A DNA stretch of 25,388 nucleotides from a virus, in the IMG/VR virus record IMGVR_UViG_3300010935_000137, positions 1 through 25,388 of that record; one strand, written 5' to 3'. Every line of letters starts with the position of its first letter. The stretch's first letter is position 1. The notes under the pieces were generated by a model. That model saw only the letters and a list, made by a program, of their open reading frames with translations. It searched no databases and was not told the DNA's origin. The translations under genes were made by a program, and so were the position numbers. Positions 69 through 25,065 of this stretch are shown one piece after another.

Positions 69-713
69 ATGTCCAGACCCCGCAAAAAACCCGCCGATCT
101 TGTAACTCCAGCTACCATCTCCCTTCCTGCGGGCGACATGGGAACGCCCACGCATTTCAACATTGCAGTGCAGAACCGGACCGGTGGGCAGGCGATCCTG
201 CGCCAGCTGGCGAAGGCGCCGAAAAAGCGCGCCCGCGATCTGGTTTCCAAAGCCTATCCACCGGTTCCCGGTGCGCGGGCGGCTATGGCGACGCGTTGCG
301 AGGATGTCGAGGGCGATGCCAACGGGCGCAAGCGGATGCGGGCGCTGCATCCGCTCGAGGTCATGCACCGCAGCGGAGCGATTGCCCAGGCGGAATGCGC
401 CGCCGGTCTGGCGTTACACGCGGCATGGGAGGAAACCGGTCGCAGTGGCGGGGTTGATCTGGCACAGGATCGGGTCGATGTCTCAAAGCGGATCTGCGGG
501 ACCGAGGACAGGATCGCCTCGTTGCAACGGTTCAGCCTGATCTGGCGCTGCCTGCCACGGGACGCGCGCGACGTGGCGATGCACGTTTGTTGCGAGGGGC
601 GCTATCTGCGCGCCGGTTTCAGCCGCAACGGTATGGCAACAGCTGTTGATCTGGAACGGTTGCGGATGGGGTTGGCGGTGCTGGCCGATGCGGCGGCGCA
701 TGGCAAGTTTTAG
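69..713 (+). CDS. DUF6456-like phage regulatory protein, candidate late-gene activator or antiterminator
   Basis: A 214-residue basic protein. The core from about residue 92 (HPLEVMHRSGAI, then AQAECAAG) and the C-terminal part (LERLRMGLAVLADAAA) resemble the DUF6456 type of alphaproteobacterial phage and chromosomal proteins, which are probable DNA-binding regulators. I chose the ATG at 69 because AAAAGG lies 8 bases upstream; the frame stays open to the left edge, so a longer N terminus cannot be excluded. It is the last gene before the late region and is followed directly by an inverted repeat, a possible promoter and a terminator, the position of a Q-type late regulator. The late-regulator role is inferred from position; the family match is from memory of the pattern and moderate. 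Confidence 0.6.
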   Translation: MSRPRKKPADLVTPATISLPAGDMGTPTHFNIAVQNRTGGQAILRQLAKAPKKRARDLVSKAYPPVPGARAAMATRCEDVEGDANGRKRMRALHPLEVMHRSGAIAQAECAAGLALHAAWEETGRSGGVDLAQDRVDVSKRICGTEDRIASLQRFSLIWRCLPRDARDVAMHVCCEGRYLRAGFSRNGMATAVDLERLRMGLAVLADAAAHGKF

Positions 714-728
714 AAAATACTTGCCATG
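699..728. repeat. Perfect 10+10 bp inverted repeat at the end of the regulatory gene
   Basis: CATGGCAAGT (699-708) and ACTTGCCATG (719-728) are exact reverse complements separated by 10 bases (709-718). The stop codon TAG (711-713) lies in the spacer. The right arm overlaps the -35-like hexamer at 721-726. No U-run follows, so a terminator is unlikely; an operator for a dimeric protein or an RNA hairpin is more plausible. Confidence 0.75.
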
Positions 729-749
729 TCCGCGAATCACCCGTACTTT
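721..749 (+). promoter_or_regulatory. Possible late promoter
   Basis: TTGCCA (721-726) and TACTTT (744-749) are spaced by 17 bases, a reasonable sigma70-type match. It would start a transcript around 756, directly ahead of the terminator at 768. The match is by eye only and alphaproteobacterial promoters are degenerate, so this is tentative. Confidence 0.35.
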
Positions 750-767
750 CTGCATATTCCAAAGATG

Positions 768-802
768 GGCCCGAAGGACGATAAATCCTCTCGGGCCTTC
801 TT
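768..802 (+). terminator. Rho-independent terminator upstream of the tRNA and late operon
   Basis: GGCCCGA (768-774) pairs with TCGGGCC (791-797). The stem continues as AGGA (775-778) with TCCT (786-789), with C790 bulged and a 7-base loop. TTCTT follows. It separates the regulatory gene from the tRNA and packaging genes, so late transcription from upstream must read through it. Confidence 0.75.
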
Positions 803-825
803 GTTATCAATCAACCAAACAGTAT

Positions 826-901
826 GTCCGGGTGGAGCAGTTGGTAGCTCGCGTGGCTCATAACCACGAGGTCGAAGGTTCGAGTCCTTCCCCGGCAACC
901 A
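826..901 (+). tRNA. tRNA with CAT anticodon, initiator-like, irregular acceptor stem
   Basis: A cloverleaf can be drawn. D stem GAGC/GCTC (835-838, 847-850); anticodon stem CGTGG/CCACG (852-856, 864-868) with loop CTCATAA and anticodon CAT at 859-861; T stem GAAGG/CCTTC (874-878, 886-890) with loop TTCGAGT; encoded CCA at 899-901. The D stem has A11:U24, a feature of bacterial initiator tRNAs, and the anticodon loop with its flanking GG/CC pairs matches initiators; the 29:41 pair is T-A rather than G-C. In the acceptor stem only five pairs form (828-832 with 891-895). The two terminal pairs mismatch unless T827 is bulged, in which case T825-A897 and G826-C896 pair. It lies between the terminator and the HNH gene, so it is phage-borne. 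Confidence 0.85.
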
Positions 902-975
902 GATCACCTGCATTGTTCGCGGTGCAGACAGGACCGGCCTTCGGGCTGGTCTTTCAATTTAAGGGACGTGAAGCG

Positions 976-1347
976 ATGGGTCGCCTGACAAACCTCAAGC
1001 CGCGCCTCGGGATGCAGACACAGCGGCTGGAGCGTGTCGGTCAGGAAGGTATCACGCGATCCGTCGAGCGCAATGAGGCCCAGCCTTGGCGGGCTTGGTA
1101 TAACACCGCCCGTTGGCGCGCGCTTCGGCAAAAGGTTTTGCTGCGTGACGGGTATATGTGCCGCAAGACCGGCGTCATGCTGGTTGGCAAATACCCTTCG
1201 CCGATAAGCCCGGTAGTCGACCACATCAAACCGCATCGCGGCGACGAGCACTTGTTCTGGGATATCGAAAATCTGCAGGCAGTCTCGAAAGAATACCACG
1301 ACAGCACCAAGCAACGGATCGAGAAGGGGGGGCGGGTAAAACTCTAA
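976..1347 (+). CDS. HNH endonuclease beside the terminase genes
   Basis: A 123-residue protein of the small HNH nuclease type that commonly sits next to terminase genes in cos-type HK97-like phages, where it assists DNA packaging. The core reads VVDHIKPHRGD (residues 80-90, catalytic His83), ENLQ (Asn99) and YHDSTK (His108). The usual zinc-binding cysteines are mostly missing: only Cys62 (MCRKTG) remains and the expected cysteine-containing stretch before the last His reads SKEYH. The start at 976 has GGGACG about 8 bases upstream; the open frame reaches back across the tRNA, but that part is not credible as coding. The family call is secure; specific cutting activity is not shown. Confidence 0.88.
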   Translation: MGRLTNLKPRLGMQTQRLERVGQEGITRSVERNEAQPWRAWYNTARWRALRQKVLLRDGYMCRKTGVMLVGKYPSPISPVVDHIKPHRGDEHLFWDIENLQAVSKEYHDSTKQRIEKGGRVKL

Positions 1348-1399: not shown

Positions 1400-1864
1400 G
1401 TGAAAAACGAAAATTCCACAGATTTGAAAGACTGCGACCTGTTTGGCAATCCGCTTGCACCTATCCGCGACCGTCGTGGACGCCCAAGCTTTAAAATAAC
1501 CAAGGAAAATCAAGACTTTGTAGCGGTTCGTGCTGCGGCTAACTGGACCCAGAAGCGCATCGCCGAGGATATGGGAATCGACGAAAAGACGCTGCGCAAG
1601 AATTTTTCCCGTGAGCTGGAAAACGGCGCGATCTTCATGGAAGGTCTGGCGCTCGACATTCTTGTTAAAAGAATGCGCGAGGGGCATACGGCCTCGATCC
1701 GCATGTTGCGGGATATCCTTGACCCGATGCCGGGATCAGCATCGAAGCCCACCAAGGAAAAAGAGGCGGCTCCACTCGGAAAAAAAGAGATACTGGCGAA
1801 GGCGGCAAAAGAGCCGACAGCGGGCTGGGGTGGCCTTCTGCCCAACATTGATCCAATTAACTGA
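1400..1864 (+). CDS. Terminase small subunit (probable)
   Basis: A 154-residue protein starting with GTG, with CGGAG 11 bases upstream. The N-terminal DLFGNPLAP and RGRP motifs (about residues 13-29) are followed by a helix-turn-helix (about residues 45-72: KRIAEDMGI, then DEKTLRKNFSREL), the DNA-recognition layout of small terminase subunits in alphaproteobacterial phages. Its TGA overlaps the ATG of the large terminase by one base (TGATG), implying coupled translation. The role, recognising phage DNA ends and handing them to the motor, follows from family and position. The C-terminal tail (about 110-154) is Lys/Ala/Glu-rich and probably flexible. Confidence 0.8.
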   Translation: MKNENSTDLKDCDLFGNPLAPIRDRRGRPSFKITKENQDFVAVRAAANWTQKRIAEDMGIDEKTLRKNFSRELENGAIFMEGLALDILVKRMREGHTASIRMLRDILDPMPGSASKPTKEKEAAPLGKKEILAKAAKEPTAGWGGLLPNIDPIN

Positions 1865-3564
1865 TGGCCTTTGATTTTGCCTGTCCGGATTGGGCGGATC
1901 GTCTGGCGGATGGTAAAACTCCGATCGCGGACTTGCCGCTTGATTTTGAATTGGCCGAGGAAGCCGTTGCGATCTACAACAACCTGCATTTACCGGATGT
2001 GCCGGGAACGCCAGCGCTTGAAGATGCTGCCGGCGAATGGTTTCGCGATATTGTTCGGGCGGTGTTCGGGTCCACAGAGGCCAGCACCAATATCCGGATG
2101 GTTGGTGAAGTCTTTTGCCTGGTGCCGAAGAAAAACAGCAAAACAACCAATGCGGCCGCGCTGGCGATCACGTTTCTGCTTTTAAACCAGCGCCGCCACG
2201 CGGATCTACTGATCATCGGGCCAACCCAGAAAATATCCGAGACGGCCTTCGAGCAGGCAAAGGGGATCATCGAGGCAGACCCGGAAAAGTATCTGCAAAA
2301 ACGGTTTCTCATTCAGGACCACAAAAAAACGATTGTGGATCGTTACACCAAAGCCCGGCTGATGATCCGGACCTTCGGGATGGAAGTTTTGACCGGCGTC
2401 AAGCCGATCTTCACAATTATCGACGAGGTTCATGTTCTCGGCGGGATTCCCTATGCGGCCGATGTTCTTCGCCAGATCCGTGGCGGGATGCTGCCATTTC
2501 CGGAAGCCCTGCTATTTATGATCACAACCCAGAGTGACCATGCGCCGGCCGGAATATTTAAATCCGAGTTGCAATATGCGCGCGGGGTGCGGGACGGGAT
2601 TATTACGGAACAGGTCCGGACCCTGCCGGTGCTTTATGAGTTTCCGGAAGCGGTGCAGACCAGTGACGACAAGCAATGGCTTGATCCGGAAATCTGGTAC
2701 ATGGTCACACCGAACATGGGCAAGTCAATCGCGCTCGATCGTTTGATCAACGGATACCAAAGGGCCAAGGAAGACGGCGACGAAGAGATCACCGCCTGGG
2801 CAACGCAGCATCTGAATGTCGAAGTCGGGTTGGCGCTGCATTCCAACCGCTGGCTCGGGGCTGATTACTGGGTCGCAGCAGGCAAGAGTGTGGTCACGCT
2901 GGAATTGATCCAGGACGTCTGCGATGTTTGTTGTGTCGGAATTGATGGCGGTGGCCTCGACGATCTGCTGGGTCTGGCGGTTATTGGACGGCACGCAAAA
3001 ACCAAACGCTGGATGCACTGGGCAAAGGCATGGGCTCATCCGGAGGTGCTGACACGGCGCAAGAATATCGCTGTCAAGCTCGAGGAATTCCGGCGTCTGG
3101 GGCAACTGGTGATTTGTGAAACTCCGACACAGGATATTATCGAGGTTGCCGACGTCATCGATGCGCTGAACCAGCGCCATCTTTTACCGCTGAAGGCCGG
3201 CATTGGTCTTGATCCCTACGGTGTAGCTGCCTTGATTGACGAAATATCGGGGCGCAAAATACCGGATGAAATGATGCTCGGGATTGGTCAGGGAACAAGA
3301 TTATCCCCGGCAATTTGGGGGCTGGAGCGCAAACTCAAAGACGGAACCTTTGTCCACGGGGCGCAGGAACTGATGGCGTGGTGCATCGAAAACGCCATTG
3401 CCGAGCAGCGCGGAAATGCGGTGTTGATTACAAAACAGACAGCTGGAAAATCGAAGATCGATCCGTTGATTGCAACCTTTAACGCGGTGATGCTGATGAC
3501 CCGAAATCCGGAACCGGCCGGCCGCAGCTCAATACTTCTTGATATGGACGGGGTATTAGTTTGA
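1864..3564 (+). CDS. terL: Terminase large subunit (HK97-type, Terminase_1 family)
   Basis: A 566-residue packaging motor ATPase and nuclease. The Walker A-like motif is VPKKNSKTT (residues 87-95), the Walker B FTIIDEVH (183-190, Asp187 and Glu188), and the coupling motif ITTQSD follows at 220-225. The C-terminal RNase H-like nuclease begins at VGIDGGGLDD (358-367) with Asp361 as a likely metal ligand; a late KIDPLIATFNAV segment fits the final acidic residue. Its length is normal for the family. The start overlaps the small subunit stop and the stop overlaps the portal ATG (TGATG both times). It translocates DNA into the prohead through the portal. Confidence 0.97.
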   Translation: MAFDFACPDWADRLADGKTPIADLPLDFELAEEAVAIYNNLHLPDVPGTPALEDAAGEWFRDIVRAVFGSTEASTNIRMVGEVFCLVPKKNSKTTNAAALAITFLLLNQRRHADLLIIGPTQKISETAFEQAKGIIEADPEKYLQKRFLIQDHKKTIVDRYTKARLMIRTFGMEVLTGVKPIFTIIDEVHVLGGIPYAADVLRQIRGGMLPFPEALLFMITTQSDHAPAGIFKSELQYARGVRDGIITEQVRTLPVLYEFPEAVQTSDDKQWLDPEIWYMVTPNMGKSIALDRLINGYQRAKEDGDEEITAWATQHLNVEVGLALHSNRWLGADYWVAAGKSVVTLELIQDVCDVCCVGIDGGGLDDLLGLAVIGRHAKTKRWMHWAKAWAHPEVLTRRKNIAVKLEEFRRLGQLVICETPTQDIIEVADVIDALNQRHLLPLKAGIGLDPYGVAALIDEISGRKIPDEMMLGIGQGTRLSPAIWGLERKLKDGTFVHGAQELMAWCIENAIAEQRGNAVLITKQTAGKSKIDPLIATFNAVMLMTRNPEPAGRSSILLDMDGVLV

Positions 3565-4754
3565 TGTGGCCGTTTCAGAAAAAATCGGAGCAGGCGCGGA
3601 TTTTTGATGCGCTGGACTACGGTCTTGGTGGCACGATTGGCGGCTTTAGAGTTTCGCCGGCGCAAGCTCTCGGGGTTGCCGCGGTTTTTGCCGCCATTCG
3701 CGTAATCTCGGAAGATGTTGCCAAGCTTCCGGCAAAATTGAAAGTCAGAACCGACAACGGCGATACAACCGCAAACGGCGAACCTGAACATGCGATGCTT
3801 AGCAGCGTCGGCGCGCCGGTTCTGGAAGATAGCGACGGCTATACGGCGATGGAATGGATCGAGGCCATTGTTGCGTCGGCCGCGTTTCATGGCGTCGGGG
3901 TTGCCTACCTGAACCGCGTTGCGGGGTCTGCCCGTGAAATTACACCGATTCCGGCCGAGAACTGGCGTAAAGAGCGCGGGATCTGGAGCATTAAATTCAG
4001 TAACGAGGCAGGTTTTACACGGGTCGATCGTCAGGACCTGTTTATTTTGAAGGGTCCGCAACTTGGCTTGAACATCACGACGCAGACGCGACAGGCGATT
4101 GGCCTGGCTATTGCGATCGACAAGCTGATGAATTCGCTAGCCCGCAAAAGTGGACGTCCAAACGGGATCATCAGTACCGGTAGTCTGGATTCGGCGGATA
4201 AAGCGGCCACGTTGATATCGCGCCTGAAAACCTATTTCGGACCAAATTCCGAAGGCGGGTTGATGCCGCTCGATATGGCCGATCTGAAGTTTCACCGGAT
4301 CAGCCTGACCCCGGATGAATTGCAGATAAAGGACACTAAATCGGGGATCGTTCAGGAAATTGCCAGCGCCTTTCGTGTGCAACCGGCGCGTCTGATGCAC
4401 GACATGAGCAGCCAGAGTTATGCCAGCGCCTATCAATGGAATATTGCCCATGTGACGGACTGCATCCAGCCCTGGGTGAAGCGGTTTTGCCAGTCGTTTG
4501 ACAAGGATGTGCTGCGCGATCGTGTAGCAAAAGGTTTTTACTGCGATATCGACCTGAAGGGGTTGCTGCGTGGATCCCCGCAAGAGCGGGCCGAGTTCCT
4601 GTTAAAACTGCGCACGATGGCGGTGCTTTCCCCGATGGGCGTAGCCCAGCTTGAGGATCTTCCTACTGAAGGGTTGAGCATCAATCCTGCACACCCGCTG
4701 TTAACAAACCCAAATCCTAGTGCCGCCCAAAAGGACGCTAATCACAATGCTTAA
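3564..4754 (+). CDS. Portal protein (HK97 family)
   Basis: A 396-residue portal protein of the HK97 phage_portal family, forming the dodecameric DNA channel at one capsid vertex and docking the terminase. Recognisable segments are AVFAAIRVISEDVAKLPAKL near residue 40, the mid-region GRPNGIISTG, and the family's C-terminal pattern where SGIVQEIASAFRVQPARLM leads into QWNIAHVTDCIQPW. I start at the ATG at 3564 because it overlaps the terL stop as TGATG; an in-frame TTG one codon earlier is less likely. The 3' end overlaps the protease start by 8 bases. Confidence 0.95.
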   Translation: MWPFQKKSEQARIFDALDYGLGGTIGGFRVSPAQALGVAAVFAAIRVISEDVAKLPAKLKVRTDNGDTTANGEPEHAMLSSVGAPVLEDSDGYTAMEWIEAIVASAAFHGVGVAYLNRVAGSAREITPIPAENWRKERGIWSIKFSNEAGFTRVDRQDLFILKGPQLGLNITTQTRQAIGLAIAIDKLMNSLARKSGRPNGIISTGSLDSADKAATLISRLKTYFGPNSEGGLMPLDMADLKFHRISLTPDELQIKDTKSGIVQEIASAFRVQPARLMHDMSSQSYASAYQWNIAHVTDCIQPWVKRFCQSFDKDVLRDRVAKGFYCDIDLKGLLRGSPQERAEFLLKLRTMAVLSPMGVAQLEDLPTEGLSINPAHPLLTNPNPSAAQKDANHNA

Positions 4755-5451
4755 TCATAACATGGACCTGCGCTTAGTGGAGCACAAACGGGGTTTTGAG
4801 GTTGCTGAAGGTTTGGCAAGTTCGGAATTCAAGGCAGGCAAGAAGGGTTTGATCGAGGGATATGGTTCGATTTTTGGTAATGTTGACCAGGGATACGACA
4901 TTGTCGAGGCGGGTGCCTTTAAAGACAGCCTGAACGACGGCCACAAAATCAAGATGCTGTGGCAGCATGACCCAAATCAACCGATCGGTGTTTGGGATAG
5001 CGTGACCGAGGACGAAAAGGGCCTGCGTGTCCAGGGTAGTCTACTGGTCGAGGTCGCTGCAGCGCGCGAGGCATTGGCCCTTTTGAAGGCCGGTGCTATT
5101 GACGGATTGTCGATCGGATATCGCACCCTTAAGTCGCGCGATACAAAGATTGACGGCCGCTTTGTGCGTATCATTGAAAAAGCAGAATTGTGGGAGGTGT
5201 CCTTGGTGACATTCCCGATGAATACCGCGGCGACGGTGGATGCGGTCAAGGCTGCAAACATGTCGCAGCGCGAATTTACCCGACAGCTTGTGAGGGATTC
5301 CAAGATGTCGCGCCGGGTTGTCGAGGCACTAATGCGCGACGGCTGGAAAGGTGTGCAGGCCCTGAGTGAATCGGGCAGTGATGACATCGATGCGTTGGCG
5401 GCTGCCATTCAGGCAAACGTCAAAACCAAACAACAGATCCTGAAAGGATAA
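4747..5451 (+). CDS. Prohead protease (HK97-type, S78/U35 family)
   Basis: A 234-residue serine protease that matures the prohead by cutting the capsid delta domain and itself. Conserved blocks: IEGYGSIFGNVDQGYDIVEAG (with GAFKDSL following), the His block MLWQHDPNQPIGVW (His74), the Ser block IDGLSIGY (Ser122) and ELWEVSLVTFPMN (Glu150), the likely catalytic set. I chose the ATG at 4747: AAAGGAC lies about 10 bases upstream and the protein then begins at a typical family N terminus. An upstream GTG in frame is unlikely. It sits between portal and capsid genes as expected. Confidence 0.94.
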   Translation: MLNHNMDLRLVEHKRGFEVAEGLASSEFKAGKKGLIEGYGSIFGNVDQGYDIVEAGAFKDSLNDGHKIKMLWQHDPNQPIGVWDSVTEDEKGLRVQGSLLVEVAAAREALALLKAGAIDGLSIGYRTLKSRDTKIDGRFVRIIEKAELWEVSLVTFPMNTAATVDAVKAANMSQREFTRQLVRDSKMSRRVVEALMRDGWKGVQALSESGSDDIDALAAAIQANVKTKQQILKG

Positions 5452-6743: not shown

Positions 6744-6773
6744 AACCCTCGCGGCGGTGTCGCGGGGTTTTTC
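6744..6773 (+). terminator. Likely intrinsic terminator after the capsid gene
   Basis: AACCC (6744-6748) plus CGCG (6750-6753) pair with CGCG (6761-6764) plus GGGTT (6765-6769), with T6749 bulged and a 7-base loop; TTTCTT follows. It could partially end transcripts after the highly expressed capsid gene while antitermination or leakage feeds the tail genes. Confidence 0.65.
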
Positions 6774-19989: not shown

Positions 19990-20103
19990 TTATCCCTCCA
20001 ATGTCTGGTGTTGTGTGGTGTAGAAATTCTGCAGATCGCGCGCCAAGCTCACGCATGGTTTCGGGCCGGAAGTTTTAGCAACCTGCTTCTTTTCGATCGT
20101 CAT
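19990..20103 (-). CDS. 37-residue micro-protein in the early operon
   Basis: ATG at 20103 overlaps the HNH stop as ATGA and TAA is at 19990-19992. The sequence is basic at the N terminus (MTIEKKQVAKTSG) with Tyr/Gln-rich C terminus (NFYTTQHQTLEG). AGAAAGG lies about 10 bases upstream. A longer overlapping frame through the HNH gene is a shadow. Coding is supported mainly by the overlap pattern. Confidence 0.55.
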   Translation of the reverse strand: MTIEKKQVAKTSGPKPCVSLARDLQNFYTTQHQTLEG

Positions 20104-20735
20104 TTCCTTGTGCCTTTCTTGATCGTTCTGGCGCTGTGTTCCAGCGTGGTGATTGCCATGATAGTTGGCTTGATCTCGGCAGGGGCGGCGTCGTAATTGC
20201 GGCCGAACCTGCCGTTCAGGCGCGGCAGCATGGCGCGAGGGACGGCTTTCCAGTTTGCGGGGTCGGTATTTGTTTTGTCGCCATCGAGTGACTTGAGGCA
20301 AAAGCCGTCGGGCAGCGGACCGTTGGCCTGTTCCCACAAGAGCCGGTGCTTGGAAACGTAACGCCGCCAGTAACCGGTATGTGGATTGGTTTCGGCCACG
20401 CTGATTTCGACATAGCCATCTTTCGAGAGGCGCTCATGACCGAGATATCGGATATTGTGCGGAGGTCCGCCCTTCTTGAACTGCGTTTTTGCGGAGCCCG
20501 CGTTATAGGGCATTTTTTTGCCCTTGTTTTGGGGGATCTCGCCTGGGGCATAATGGCCTGTCCTGCCTGTCATCCAGCCGTTGCGTTTGCACAGGGAATT
20601 GTACGCACCCAAAGACACATCGGCGCGATTGAATTTCGCCCCGAATTTCGCGTGGGCGATGCGGCGCACCAGTGTTTTATGCGCCTCGACCCACGCCAGT
20701 TCTTCGGCGCTATAGGTAATAGCTTGGCCCTTCAT
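20100..20735 (-). CDS. HNH endonuclease, free-standing homing-type
   Basis: 211 residues. N-terminal helix-turn-helix-like part (YSAEELAWVEAHK to about 55), then FKKGGPPHN and GYVEISVAE linker blocks, and the HNH core VSKHRLLWEQANGPLP (His130), SLDGDKTNTDPANWKAV (Asn161) and PRAML. This is the common phage HNH family with a DNA-binding N terminus. It may be a selfish intruder or a functional phage nuclease. Overlaps both neighbours by 4 bases, so it is translationally embedded in the operon. Confidence 0.9.
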   Translation of the reverse strand: MKGQAITYSAEELAWVEAHKTLVRRIAHAKFGAKFNRADVSLGAYNSLCKRNGWMTGRTGHYAPGEIPQNKGKKMPYNAGSAKTQFKKGGPPHNIRYLGHERLSKDGYVEISVAETNPHTGYWRRYVSKHRLLWEQANGPLPDGFCLKSLDGDKTNTDPANWKAVPRAMLPRLNGRFGRNYDAAPAEIKPTIMAITTLEHSARTIKKGTRK

Positions 20736-21713: not shown

Positions 21714-22003
21714 GGTATCGCCTGTTCAAACTGGCCATCATCAAGGACGCGCTCAGCGGTTTTCATCCAGCACTGGACCGCATCACCGGTGCTGACGCCG
21801 ACTCCGTTTACGCCGAACAGGCTGATTTCCACGATGACGGGCAAATCCTCGTCACCATATCGGACAGTGCTATCGGGCGGCGCGGACCAGATACCGCCGG
21901 TTTCCATGATTGCCCCGGCAATGGCATCGGCGCGATCTGTCATGGTTTTGTGGTGCAGGCTTTCGAGAAAAGCGGCGAGGCGCGGGTTGTGGTAGGGCGA
22001 CAT
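21710..22003 (-). CDS. Early protein of unknown function (97 residues)
   Basis: Begins at a TGATG-type overlap with the ParB-like gene and ends in an ATGA overlap with the HTH gene. The sequence has a helical N half (LAAFLESLHHKTMTDRADAI) and a β-rich centre (LPVIVEISLFGVNGVGV). No family recognised. Conserved position in the operon suggests co-function with its neighbours. Confidence 0.65.
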   Translation of the reverse strand: MSPYHNPRLAAFLESLHHKTMTDRADAIAGAIMETGGIWSAPPDSTVRYGDEDLPVIVEISLFGVNGVGVSTGDAVQCWMKTAERVLDDGQFEQAIP

Positions 22004-22854
22004 CAGAATGCCTCCGAAATGCGTTTAGAATGGTTTTTGTTGTAGGCTTTGGCGATCTGGCCGGCGGCATGGCGCATTTTCTGACCGCCGAGCATTTTGA
22101 CCAGATTGCGGGCGTTATCCTCGACCTCGTCGAAAAGGATGTCGGCAAGGGTTTCTTGCAACCGGTCCGTAGTGTGACCCTCCGTCTCGATGCGCCGAAA
22201 GACCAGCGCGGTTGCCTCGATGTTGGTGGCGGTCAGCAGGTTTGTGGTGTCGGGTTGGGCGGTGATCATCAATTCCAGAATCGCGGCTAGCTGGTCGTGG
22301 CCAATTTTTGCGGCAAGCGTTTGCAGCTTATTGATCGCGCGGGTATGGCGTGGGCGCAAAGCATTGCCGGTTGGCCCCTCGATCTTGATCTCCAGTCGAT
22401 CAAGGACAGACTGGAGTTCGAGGGCGTTCCGGTCACCGGACACCAGTTTGGCGCGATATTCGTCGATCGGGCCGACGCGGGTGCGATTTTTGTTGATGCC
22501 GACAAAGGCATCCGCCTGTCCAGTCAGGATTGCATTGCCAATAAGGGCGGGCACCTGCGGTAACATCAGGTGCAGGGCGGCGACGGCGCGGTGCTGGCCA
22601 TCAATCACGGCATATCCACCCGGCATTCTGGCAACGACCAGTGCGCCGAATTGCAGCCAGTCGAAATCGGAAATGATGCGTTTGATCGTAGTCTCGCCGA
22701 TGCGCGAGATATCACGCTGGTAGCTTTGGTCGAGCAGCAGCTGGTCGGTGGGTATCCATGCCAGTTTAGGCAAGATTAGGCTTGCCGATTCATCGACGTA
22801 TTTTACCTTCTGGGCCAGAAGGCTGGCGATCGGGGTGATTTTGACAAGGGTCAT
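22003..22854 (-). CDS. ParB-like (sulfiredoxin-fold) phage protein
   Basis: 283 residues from the ATG at 22854. QLLLDQSYQRDISRIGE (about 38-54), FGALVVARMPGGYAVIDGQHR (the DGQHR box at 85-89) and AVAAL match the ParB/Srx nuclease-like fold of DUF6551-type phage proteins. Such proteins occur beside phage regulation and replication genes. It may bind or nick DNA, or act as a regulator; no partition partner (ParA) is seen. The open frame extends upstream but would duplicate the neighbouring gene, so it is ignored. Confidence 0.85.
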   Translation of the reverse strand: MTLVKITPIASLLAQKVKYVDESASLILPKLAWIPTDQLLLDQSYQRDISRIGETTIKRIISDFDWLQFGALVVARMPGGYAVIDGQHRAVAALHLMLPQVPALIGNAILTGQADAFVGINKNRTRVGPIDEYRAKLVSGDRNALELQSVLDRLEIKIEGPTGNALRPRHTRAINKLQTLAAKIGHDQLAAILELMITAQPDTTNLLTATNIEATALVFRRIETEGHTTDRLQETLADILFDEVEDNARNLVKMLGGQKMRHAAGQIAKAYNKNHSKRISEAF

Positions 22855-23072
22855 GGGGCGCTCCGGCGTTGGCGGTTGGCAAGGATTTGCGGCAGTTCGG
22901 ATCCGGCAAAGGCGATGCGGCGTTGCTGGCACATGCGCATCGGATAGCCCTGCGCCAGTTTCAGGATTTCCCAGCAGGTTGTAAAAATCTGCGGGTGATC
23001 GAGATGGCTTTGCGGATGGGTGACAACCCGCCGCACCATGGCGAGGGTTTCTGGATCGGTTGGCAAGGTCAT
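22851..23072 (-). CDS. Small early protein, 73 residues, unknown
   Basis: ATG at 23072 overlaps the preceding stop by one base (TGATG) and its own stop overlaps the ParB-like ATG (ATGA). The sequence (MTLPTDPETLAMVRRVVTHP, then FTTCWEILKLAQGYPMRMC) is partly helical and ends basic. The longer frame upstream is a shadow of the next gene. No family recognised. Confidence 0.62.
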   Translation of the reverse strand: MTLPTDPETLAMVRRVVTHPQSHLDHPQIFTTCWEILKLAQGYPMRMCQQRRIAFAGSELPQILANRQRRSAP

Positions 23073-24349: not shown

Positions 24350-24952
24350 CTATAAAACTTGAATATCCTGTTTGGCGATATGACGCCGTAACGGGGCCGC
24401 CCACTTCAGGTGGGTGGCGTATTCAGTCTGGTTCGAATTATTGGCACTGTGCAAGTCAAAAGTTTTCGGTTCGCGCCCCGGGCGGATGTGTTTCACCAGG
24501 GCGCGGCCATCCTCGGTTTCGCAAATGCTGACGTGATTGACGGCGGCGGGATCCACCCCGAAAAAGTGGCGGGTAAAGAACAACACGTCGCCGGACTGGA
24601 TGATCGGGGCCATCGAATCGCCGACCACCTCGACCGCGACAACGCCGGAAGTTGGCAGATCCTCGGGGCAGGCGACGTGATACAGCCCGTCGCCCTTTGC
24701 ATAGGCATCAACAAGATCTACCGCCGCGCCCGCTCCGACTTTGCCAGCAACGGCGATCTTGCGCTCCGATTCCTGTAGAGCCGATATTTCGACATCCAGA
24801 AATTTGGCTATCGCTGCGAGAGTGGTTGTCGATGGCAATTTTTTATTATTCGCGATATCGCTGATAAAGCTTTTGTTTACGCCAACGCCGTCCGCAAGGC
24901 TGGTTTGTGAGATATTTCGAGACTTTAGCAATTCTTTGAGACGTAGTTTCAT
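24350..24952 (-). CDS. S24-family phage repressor (CI/LexA-type)
   Basis: 200 residues from the ATG at 24952; the open frame continues 36 codons upstream into the operator region and those residues are not helix-turn-helix. N-terminal HTH: LKELLKSRNISQTSLADGVGV (to about residue 26) then NKSFISDIANNKKLPS. The C-terminal S24 peptidase domain has the catalytic pair Ser113 (VVGDSMAP) and Lys154 (ALVKHI), and a likely self-cleavage site at Ala69-Gly70 (VAGKVGAGA). It maintains lysogeny, with RecA-triggered self-cleavage as the usual induction route. Confidence 0.93.
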   Translation of the reverse strand: MKLRLKELLKSRNISQTSLADGVGVNKSFISDIANNKKLPSTTTLAAIAKFLDVEISALQESERKIAVAGKVGAGAAVDLVDAYAKGDGLYHVACPEDLPTSGVVAVEVVGDSMAPIIQSGDVLFFTRHFFGVDPAAVNHVSICETEDGRALVKHIRPGREPKTFDLHSANNSNQTEYATHLKWAAPLRRHIAKQDIQVL

Positions 24953-25065
24953 GACGACTTTATCGCCGAAAAAACATTCCGGTGCGATCATCTGCATGTG
25001 AAAAGTTGCCACTTGGTGAACATTTCTACTTGACGTAGTAAGTTCACAGTGAGAGAACATGTGTT
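24953..25065. promoter_or_regulatory. Divergent operator/promoter region between cI and cro
   Basis: 113-base intergenic region. TTGACG (25030-25035) with a 17-base spacer to GAGAAC (25053-25058) is a weak rightward promoter candidate. GTGAAC (25016-25021) and GTTCAC (25042-25047) are inverted, and GTTC...GAAC spans 25042-25058, suggesting half-sites of a repressor. Exact operators need footprinting. Confidence 0.5.

Follow-up and report, generated by a model that had tools for sequence, protein, structure and literature searches.

The phage record IMGVR_UViG_3300010935_000137 probably carries a Q-like late antitermination switch, run by a distant relative of the DUF6456 proteins GafZ and GafA. 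The switch region separates the first gene (69-713) from the late operon. Five lines of evidence lead to this reading: conservation among relatives, recurrence across phages, the lack of room for a downstream promoter, exchange of the regulator with NusG-type proteins, and the precedent of GafZ. An earlier note on this DNA had proposed a pR'-tR'-like late switch in which the regulator binds an inverted repeat. The layout it described stands, backed by the same evidence, while the inverted repeat as binding site is not supported.

The window analysed here is the whole 25,388-nt record, which is linear and probably a fragment. Its plus strand carries HNH, TerS-position, TerL, portal, protease, capsid, tail and endolysin genes, with the portal, S78 protease and capsid genes downstream of TerL. 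The minus strand encodes an integrase and a CI-like repressor (24350-25060); the leftward region also holds a ParB-like protein (22003-22932, minus) and a second HNH endonuclease (20100-20735, minus). All of the elements described earlier, from regulator gene through inverted repeat, promoter boxes and terminator to late genes, are present (Table 1), and two more had been missed, the tRNA-Met (825-901) and a second hairpin (927-955). The perfect inverted repeat over the stop codon is borne out. So is the terminator about 12 bases after the predicted start, which we place near 756, with the hairpin opening some 11 nt later. The TTGCCA-17-TACTTT promoter is there too, though it agrees with the sigma-70 consensus at 8/12 positions and fell below the threshold of a generic promoter scan that missed the bulged hairpin as well. 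Inside the late operon, directly 3' of the capsid gene, lies another strong terminator-like hairpin with TTTTTC (6747-6767); it would also require read-through, or it doses expression.

Table 1. Features of the switch region and the start of the late operon (window coordinates)
Feature	Position	Strand	Remarks
Regulator gene, 214 aa; candidate late antiterminator, distant DUF6456-like	69..713	+	predicted helical core 89-212
Inverted repeat, CATGGCAAGT (699-708) / ACTTGCCATG (719-728)	699..728		ten perfect pairs; TAG stop (711-713) in the loop
-35 element TTGCCA (most other switches TTGACN)	721..726	+	6/6 identical in window, L002 and L034
-10 element TACTTT, weak, 17-bp spacer	744..749	+	5/6 positions identical in all three; same register in extended family
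-10-like hexamer CATATT, candidate sigma-pause element, in invariant start region 750-766	753..758	+	17/17 identical
Intrinsic terminator: stem 767-798, then U-rich tail TTCTTGTT	767..805	+	about 11 nt after predicted start
tRNA-Met (CAT), in late leader	825..901	+	ARAGORN; Rfam RF00005 56.1 bits; one unpaired T in 5' acceptor strand
Second hairpin with short U run	927..955	+	-18.1 kcal/mol, z -3.3
HNH endonuclease, first late protein gene	976..1347	+	PHROG 589, 1e-24
HTH protein, terminase small subunit position	1400..1864	+	phrog_12540, 4.9e-26 (unknown function); role from position before TerL
Terminase large subunit (TerL)	1864..3564	+	TerL_ATPase and TerL_nuclease domains

Promoter and hairpin together exceed chance, and comparison with relatives shows that they are held more tightly than the gene before them. 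Single-sequence searches of IMG/VR, INPHARED and PLSDB returned no close relatives, and the exact 20-nt start region matched a single contig in IMG/VR. A TerL search nevertheless led to L002, whose regulator is 55% identical and which has the same switch and tRNA, and a profile of the regulator led to L034 and L035, both in Rhodobacteraceae MAGs; regulators with the same downstream switch are 55-56% identical to that of the window. L035 and L002 share one regulator sequence and switch, and the alignment comprises the window, L002 and L034. Across these three, the -35 element (6/6) and positions 750-766 (17/17) are invariant and the tRNA is identical at 72/77 positions (93%), compared with 59% for the regulator gene and at most 22% for the stretch after the tRNA. 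The promoter-to-hairpin block is conserved above the regulator coding sequence. L034 differs in the HNH gene and in the one that follows it, while its own regulator, promoter, hairpin and tRNA are retained, so these four parts travel together.

The hairpin at 767-798 has a folding energy of -22 kcal/mol (z -4.0; 0/200 shuffles as good). Its counterparts in the two relatives are stronger (-24.9 kcal/mol, z -5.3, and -27.3 kcal/mol, z -6.1) and keep the outer stem, with substitutions and indels in the inner stem that preserve pairing. The tRNA-Met also recurs, in L002 (3650-3726), L034 (3975-4051), L035 and L115 (3437-3512), and thus with two different regulator families. Its acceptor stem pairs perfectly only with one T of the 5' strand bulged (TG-T-CCGGG / CCCGGCA), and this bulge is kept while the paired bases covary. 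Phage phiLM21 has a tRNA-Met nearby, on the opposite strand.

The same layout recurs well beyond these relatives. With a TerS profile we collected 58 IMG/VR loci, chosen regardless of their regulator. The gene preceding HNH-TerS-TerL falls into at least two groups, a NusG-type group (11 loci) and several small hypothetical families. Among the non-NusG genes in this slot, TTGAC occurs at the stop codon in 20/26 (5/225 controls), where the -35 box often contains the TGA stop, and 22/26 are followed by a hairpin of -16 kcal/mol or better. Both features together mark 17 of the 26 and none of 225 control genes, which were other genes from the same loci; the corresponding p value of 3e-20 overstates independence, since the sequences are related and the loci share phylogenetic history. 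The layout is missing from a few homologous genes (L040; L143, L160 and L164), which are perhaps remnants or genes with mis-called ends. The isolated phages RcapNL, Pthi1 and Psul1 share the gene order, and in these three and Shpa the slot gene is annotated as hypothetical and goes without comment in the papers found.

Exchange of the regulator supplies the strongest indirect argument for how it works. At the NusG-type loci the module of TTGAC and -10-like hexamer is found in 0/11, and a hairpin of -12 kcal/mol or better still precedes HNH in 8/11. In phage phiLM21 the same slot holds p034, annotated as a NusG-like transcription anti-terminator. The terminator is the part common to both groups, and the loading module goes with the type of regulator. 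Because NusG-type genes swap in while the hairpin is usually kept, the window protein is likely to act in elongation as well.

A second -10-like sequence in the start region suggests where a regulator could load. We scanned for hexamers whose second base is A and whose sixth is T, counting the offset from the first base of the -35 element. Such hexamers cluster at offsets 32-37 of the discovery loci, with 15 seen against 2.3 expected. For a test on loci outside the discovery set, a profile of the family-B regulator (A9) matched 31 of 394 genomes from the bacterial family to which the L034 MAG belongs. Among their 29 distinct loci, 23 have TTGAC and 24 a hairpin, and 20 of the 23 switches carry a hexamer, mostly YATCAT, at offset 35-37 (1.2 expected); these loci are homologous to the discovery loci and confirm the pattern within family B, not independently of it. 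The extended window family shows the hexamer at offset 31-32 in 8/10 switches (0.57 expected). Lambda has its pause element, AACGAT, at offset 35 from its -35, TTGACT; the offset matches that of family B rather than that of the window family. In lambda, a -10-like sequence causes a sigma-dependent pause at which Q loads (PMC6606751). By analogy, the hexamer may pause polymerase in the switches described here.

These observations suggest a mechanism. Host RNA polymerase would start at the weak sigma-70-type promoter (721-749) and, by default, stop at the hairpin at 767-798, leaving an RNA of roughly 45-50 nt. When present, the regulator would load onto polymerase held close to the promoter. Loading would probably involve contacts with the promoter DNA and take place at a sigma-dependent pause for which the -10-like CATATT (753-758) is responsible. 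The modified polymerase could then pass the hairpin, the tRNA-Met and the second hairpin and continue into HNH, TerS, TerL and the late operon. For the window, we infer the start site, the pausing, the direct loading of the regulator and the read-through.

What kind of protein would do this? Sequence and model together suggest that the window regulator is a distant DUF6456-like protein rather than a DUF6456 member. It has no Pfam match at E<1, nor one at the cut-off of PF20057 (DUF6456). Its L002 homologue scores 16.5 bits against PF20057 (E 0.009; curated cut-off 26.3), and 5/12 members of family A4 give matches, the best at E 5.3e-5 and likewise sub-threshold. An AlphaFold model with a pLDDT of 63 shows a helical core at 89-212. 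A Foldseek search with this model matches a phage DUF6456 protein (E 2e-4, probability 1.00), but with a TM-score of 0.43-0.46. A model of the family-B regulator has many of the same Foldseek neighbours, which include sigma region-4 proteins, and a PDB fold search with the window model gave no solved-structure match. As to the "DUF6456-like" label of the earlier note, sub-threshold matches in relatives and the fold match speak for it, but the window protein itself has no Pfam match. Pfam shows no NusG N-terminal domain in this protein, unlike L026 and other slot proteins, and the Pfam and PHROG matches include no known Q family, leaving no detectable homology to Q.

GafZ gives this family a precedent. 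Work from 2024 identified it as an antiterminator that acts with GafY at the Caulobacter gene transfer agent (GTA) promoter, where it loads and lets RNA polymerase pass terminators, and it is homologous to the C-terminal half of GafA (PMC11150451). The view that DUF6456-like proteins are not well described in such a role is thus outdated. GafA homologues are annotated as DUF6456 (PMC9638019). A direct profile-profile comparison with GafA was not significant, and the link from the window regulator to GafZ is plausible but distant. Like the window switch, the GTA activators GafZ and GafA (Caulobacter, Rhodobacter) are alphaproteobacterial, and a weak sequence and fold link joins them to the window regulator. 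They differ from it in several respects: sequence identity is very low, no GafY partner gene is seen in the window, the GTA terminator follows the first gene whereas that of the window lies 11 nt after the start, and neither the window nor its family has a GafZ-like palindrome between -35 and -10.

The other known systems resemble the window switch in layout or action. Lambda Q with pR'-tR', and Q of phage 21, likewise place the regulator gene before its own promoter, a -10-like element in the start region, a terminator and the late genes. The lambda terminator, however, follows a long leader, whereas the window hairpin begins about 11 nt after the start, and the lambda late operon opens with lysis genes, that of the window with tRNA, HNH and terminase. 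AlpA of Pseudomonas aeruginosa is a promoter-loaded antiterminator that passes an intrinsic terminator upstream of its target operon (PMC7969949). It resembles the proposed switch in promoter loading and terminator passage, and the searches made show it to be unrelated to the window regulator. NusG/RfaH-type phage antiterminators such as phiLM21 p034 occupy the same slot before HNH-TerS-TerL, usually with a leader hairpin, but belong to a different protein family and have no TTGAC/-10-like module after the gene.

Several other explanations have to be weighed against a Q-like switch. The late promoter could be activated without antitermination, by a regulator that is an ordinary, perhaps sigma-like, activator of a weak promoter; the hairpin would then act as a leaky attenuator or, lying at the 5' end of the late mRNA, help to process or stabilise that mRNA. 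The -10 element is indeed poor, and an activator-dependent promoter might instead use the -10-like hexamer as its true -10. Activation of initiation is also known for GafY and GafA, and sigma region-4 proteins are among the Foldseek neighbours. Yet the hairpins are strong by energy, carry U tails and sit a short way past the start in almost every family, and the slot is also filled by NusG-type elongation factors. In addition, TTGAC and the -10-like hexamer are 25-30 bp apart, a distance unsuited to a sigma-70 promoter built from those boxes. We consider this explanation unlikely.

Another reading takes the inverted repeat at 699-728 as an operator, through which the regulator, as the earlier note had it, or the CI-like repressor would block or activate the promoter. 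The ten perfect pairs overlap the -35 element, and relatives show a symmetrical change at one position (AAGT/ACTT to AAAT/ATTT), but the repeat alone exceeds chance weakly: repeats with arms of at least 10 and loops of at most 20 number 3 in the 25-kb window and 0.57 in shuffles. In both independent relatives (L002 and L034) the left arm is identical at 6/10 positions, and this arm also encodes the conserved C-terminal GKF, which makes the repeat a poor operator candidate. The anticipated co-conservation of repeat and gene is not seen either, as the relatives do not keep the repeat, which is shortened there to 6/7 pairs. Nor are such repeats general at related switches: inverted repeats between -35 and start are weakly enriched (9 versus 5.2 expected), mostly in one family, and no shared binding motif was found across switches. 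We rejected the repeat as a conserved operator; it is probably not the operator of the switch, and regulation through it seems quite improbable. A better candidate for contact with the regulator may be CCGCGAATC, between -35 and -10, which is invariant in the window, L002 and L034 and has no repeat structure.

The hairpin could also be a plain boundary that ends the early regulator transcript, with the late operon served by its own later promoter, such as one within the 177 nt that surround the tRNA. The window does have room between 798 and 976, and some phages have large gaps, but a generic scan of 798-975 gave no promoter, and both the TTGAC box and the -10-like hexamer stand before the hairpin at a fixed spacing. 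Moreover, about half of the switches have only 5-41 nt between the end of the hairpin and HNH, which leaves no room for a downstream promoter; the late genes there would have to be read through the hairpin. A mere boundary is thus highly unlikely. The least probable of these explanations is that an RfaH-type factor is recruited within the late leader and that loading or processing takes place at the tRNA or the second hairpin rather than at the promoter. NusG-type phages do retain the leader hairpin and not the promoter module, and tRNA-Met recurs in late leaders, but most switches of this regulator type lack a tRNA and the window protein does not resemble NusG.

Returning to the Q-like switch, we tentatively suggest, as a possibility that falls somewhat short of even, that DUF6456-like late regulators of alphaproteobacterial phages form an unrecognised class of promoter-loaded antiterminators. 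This class would be unrelated to Q and would have reached the lambda layout independently, with a sigma-pause element at a similar distance from the -35 as part of it, and GafZ and GafA would be domesticated members of the class. How alphaproteobacterial phages control their late genes has for the most part not been described. If true, the proposal would assign a role to many phage genes now called hypothetical, supply a sequence signature by which late promoters could be located, imply a phage origin for GafZ, and add a further example of unrelated proteins that have converged in how they load onto paused RNA polymerase. Searches of the open literature turned up no account of this phage switch, and the papers they gave that name DUF6456 do not concern phages; on this coverage the novelty is provisional.

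Two further observations concern methylation sites and GafA-like phage genes. A GANTC (CcrM) site at 731-738 (CGCGAATC), between -35 and -10, is conserved in the window, L002 and L034; GANTC also lies within the family-B switches L080, L082, L087 and L107, is seen in family A and is absent from most others. GafA-like proteins are encoded in Roseobacter phage RDJL Phi 1 (gp38; L135, 3983-4915) and in a freshwater phage contig (L134, 3746-4552), in both cases without a terminase next door in the stretch seen. A phage gene with a full DUF6456 domain (L129, about 4669-5441), 51% identical to GafA over the domain, stands directly before HNH-TerS-TerL, with a terminator-like run upstream of the gene rather than after it.
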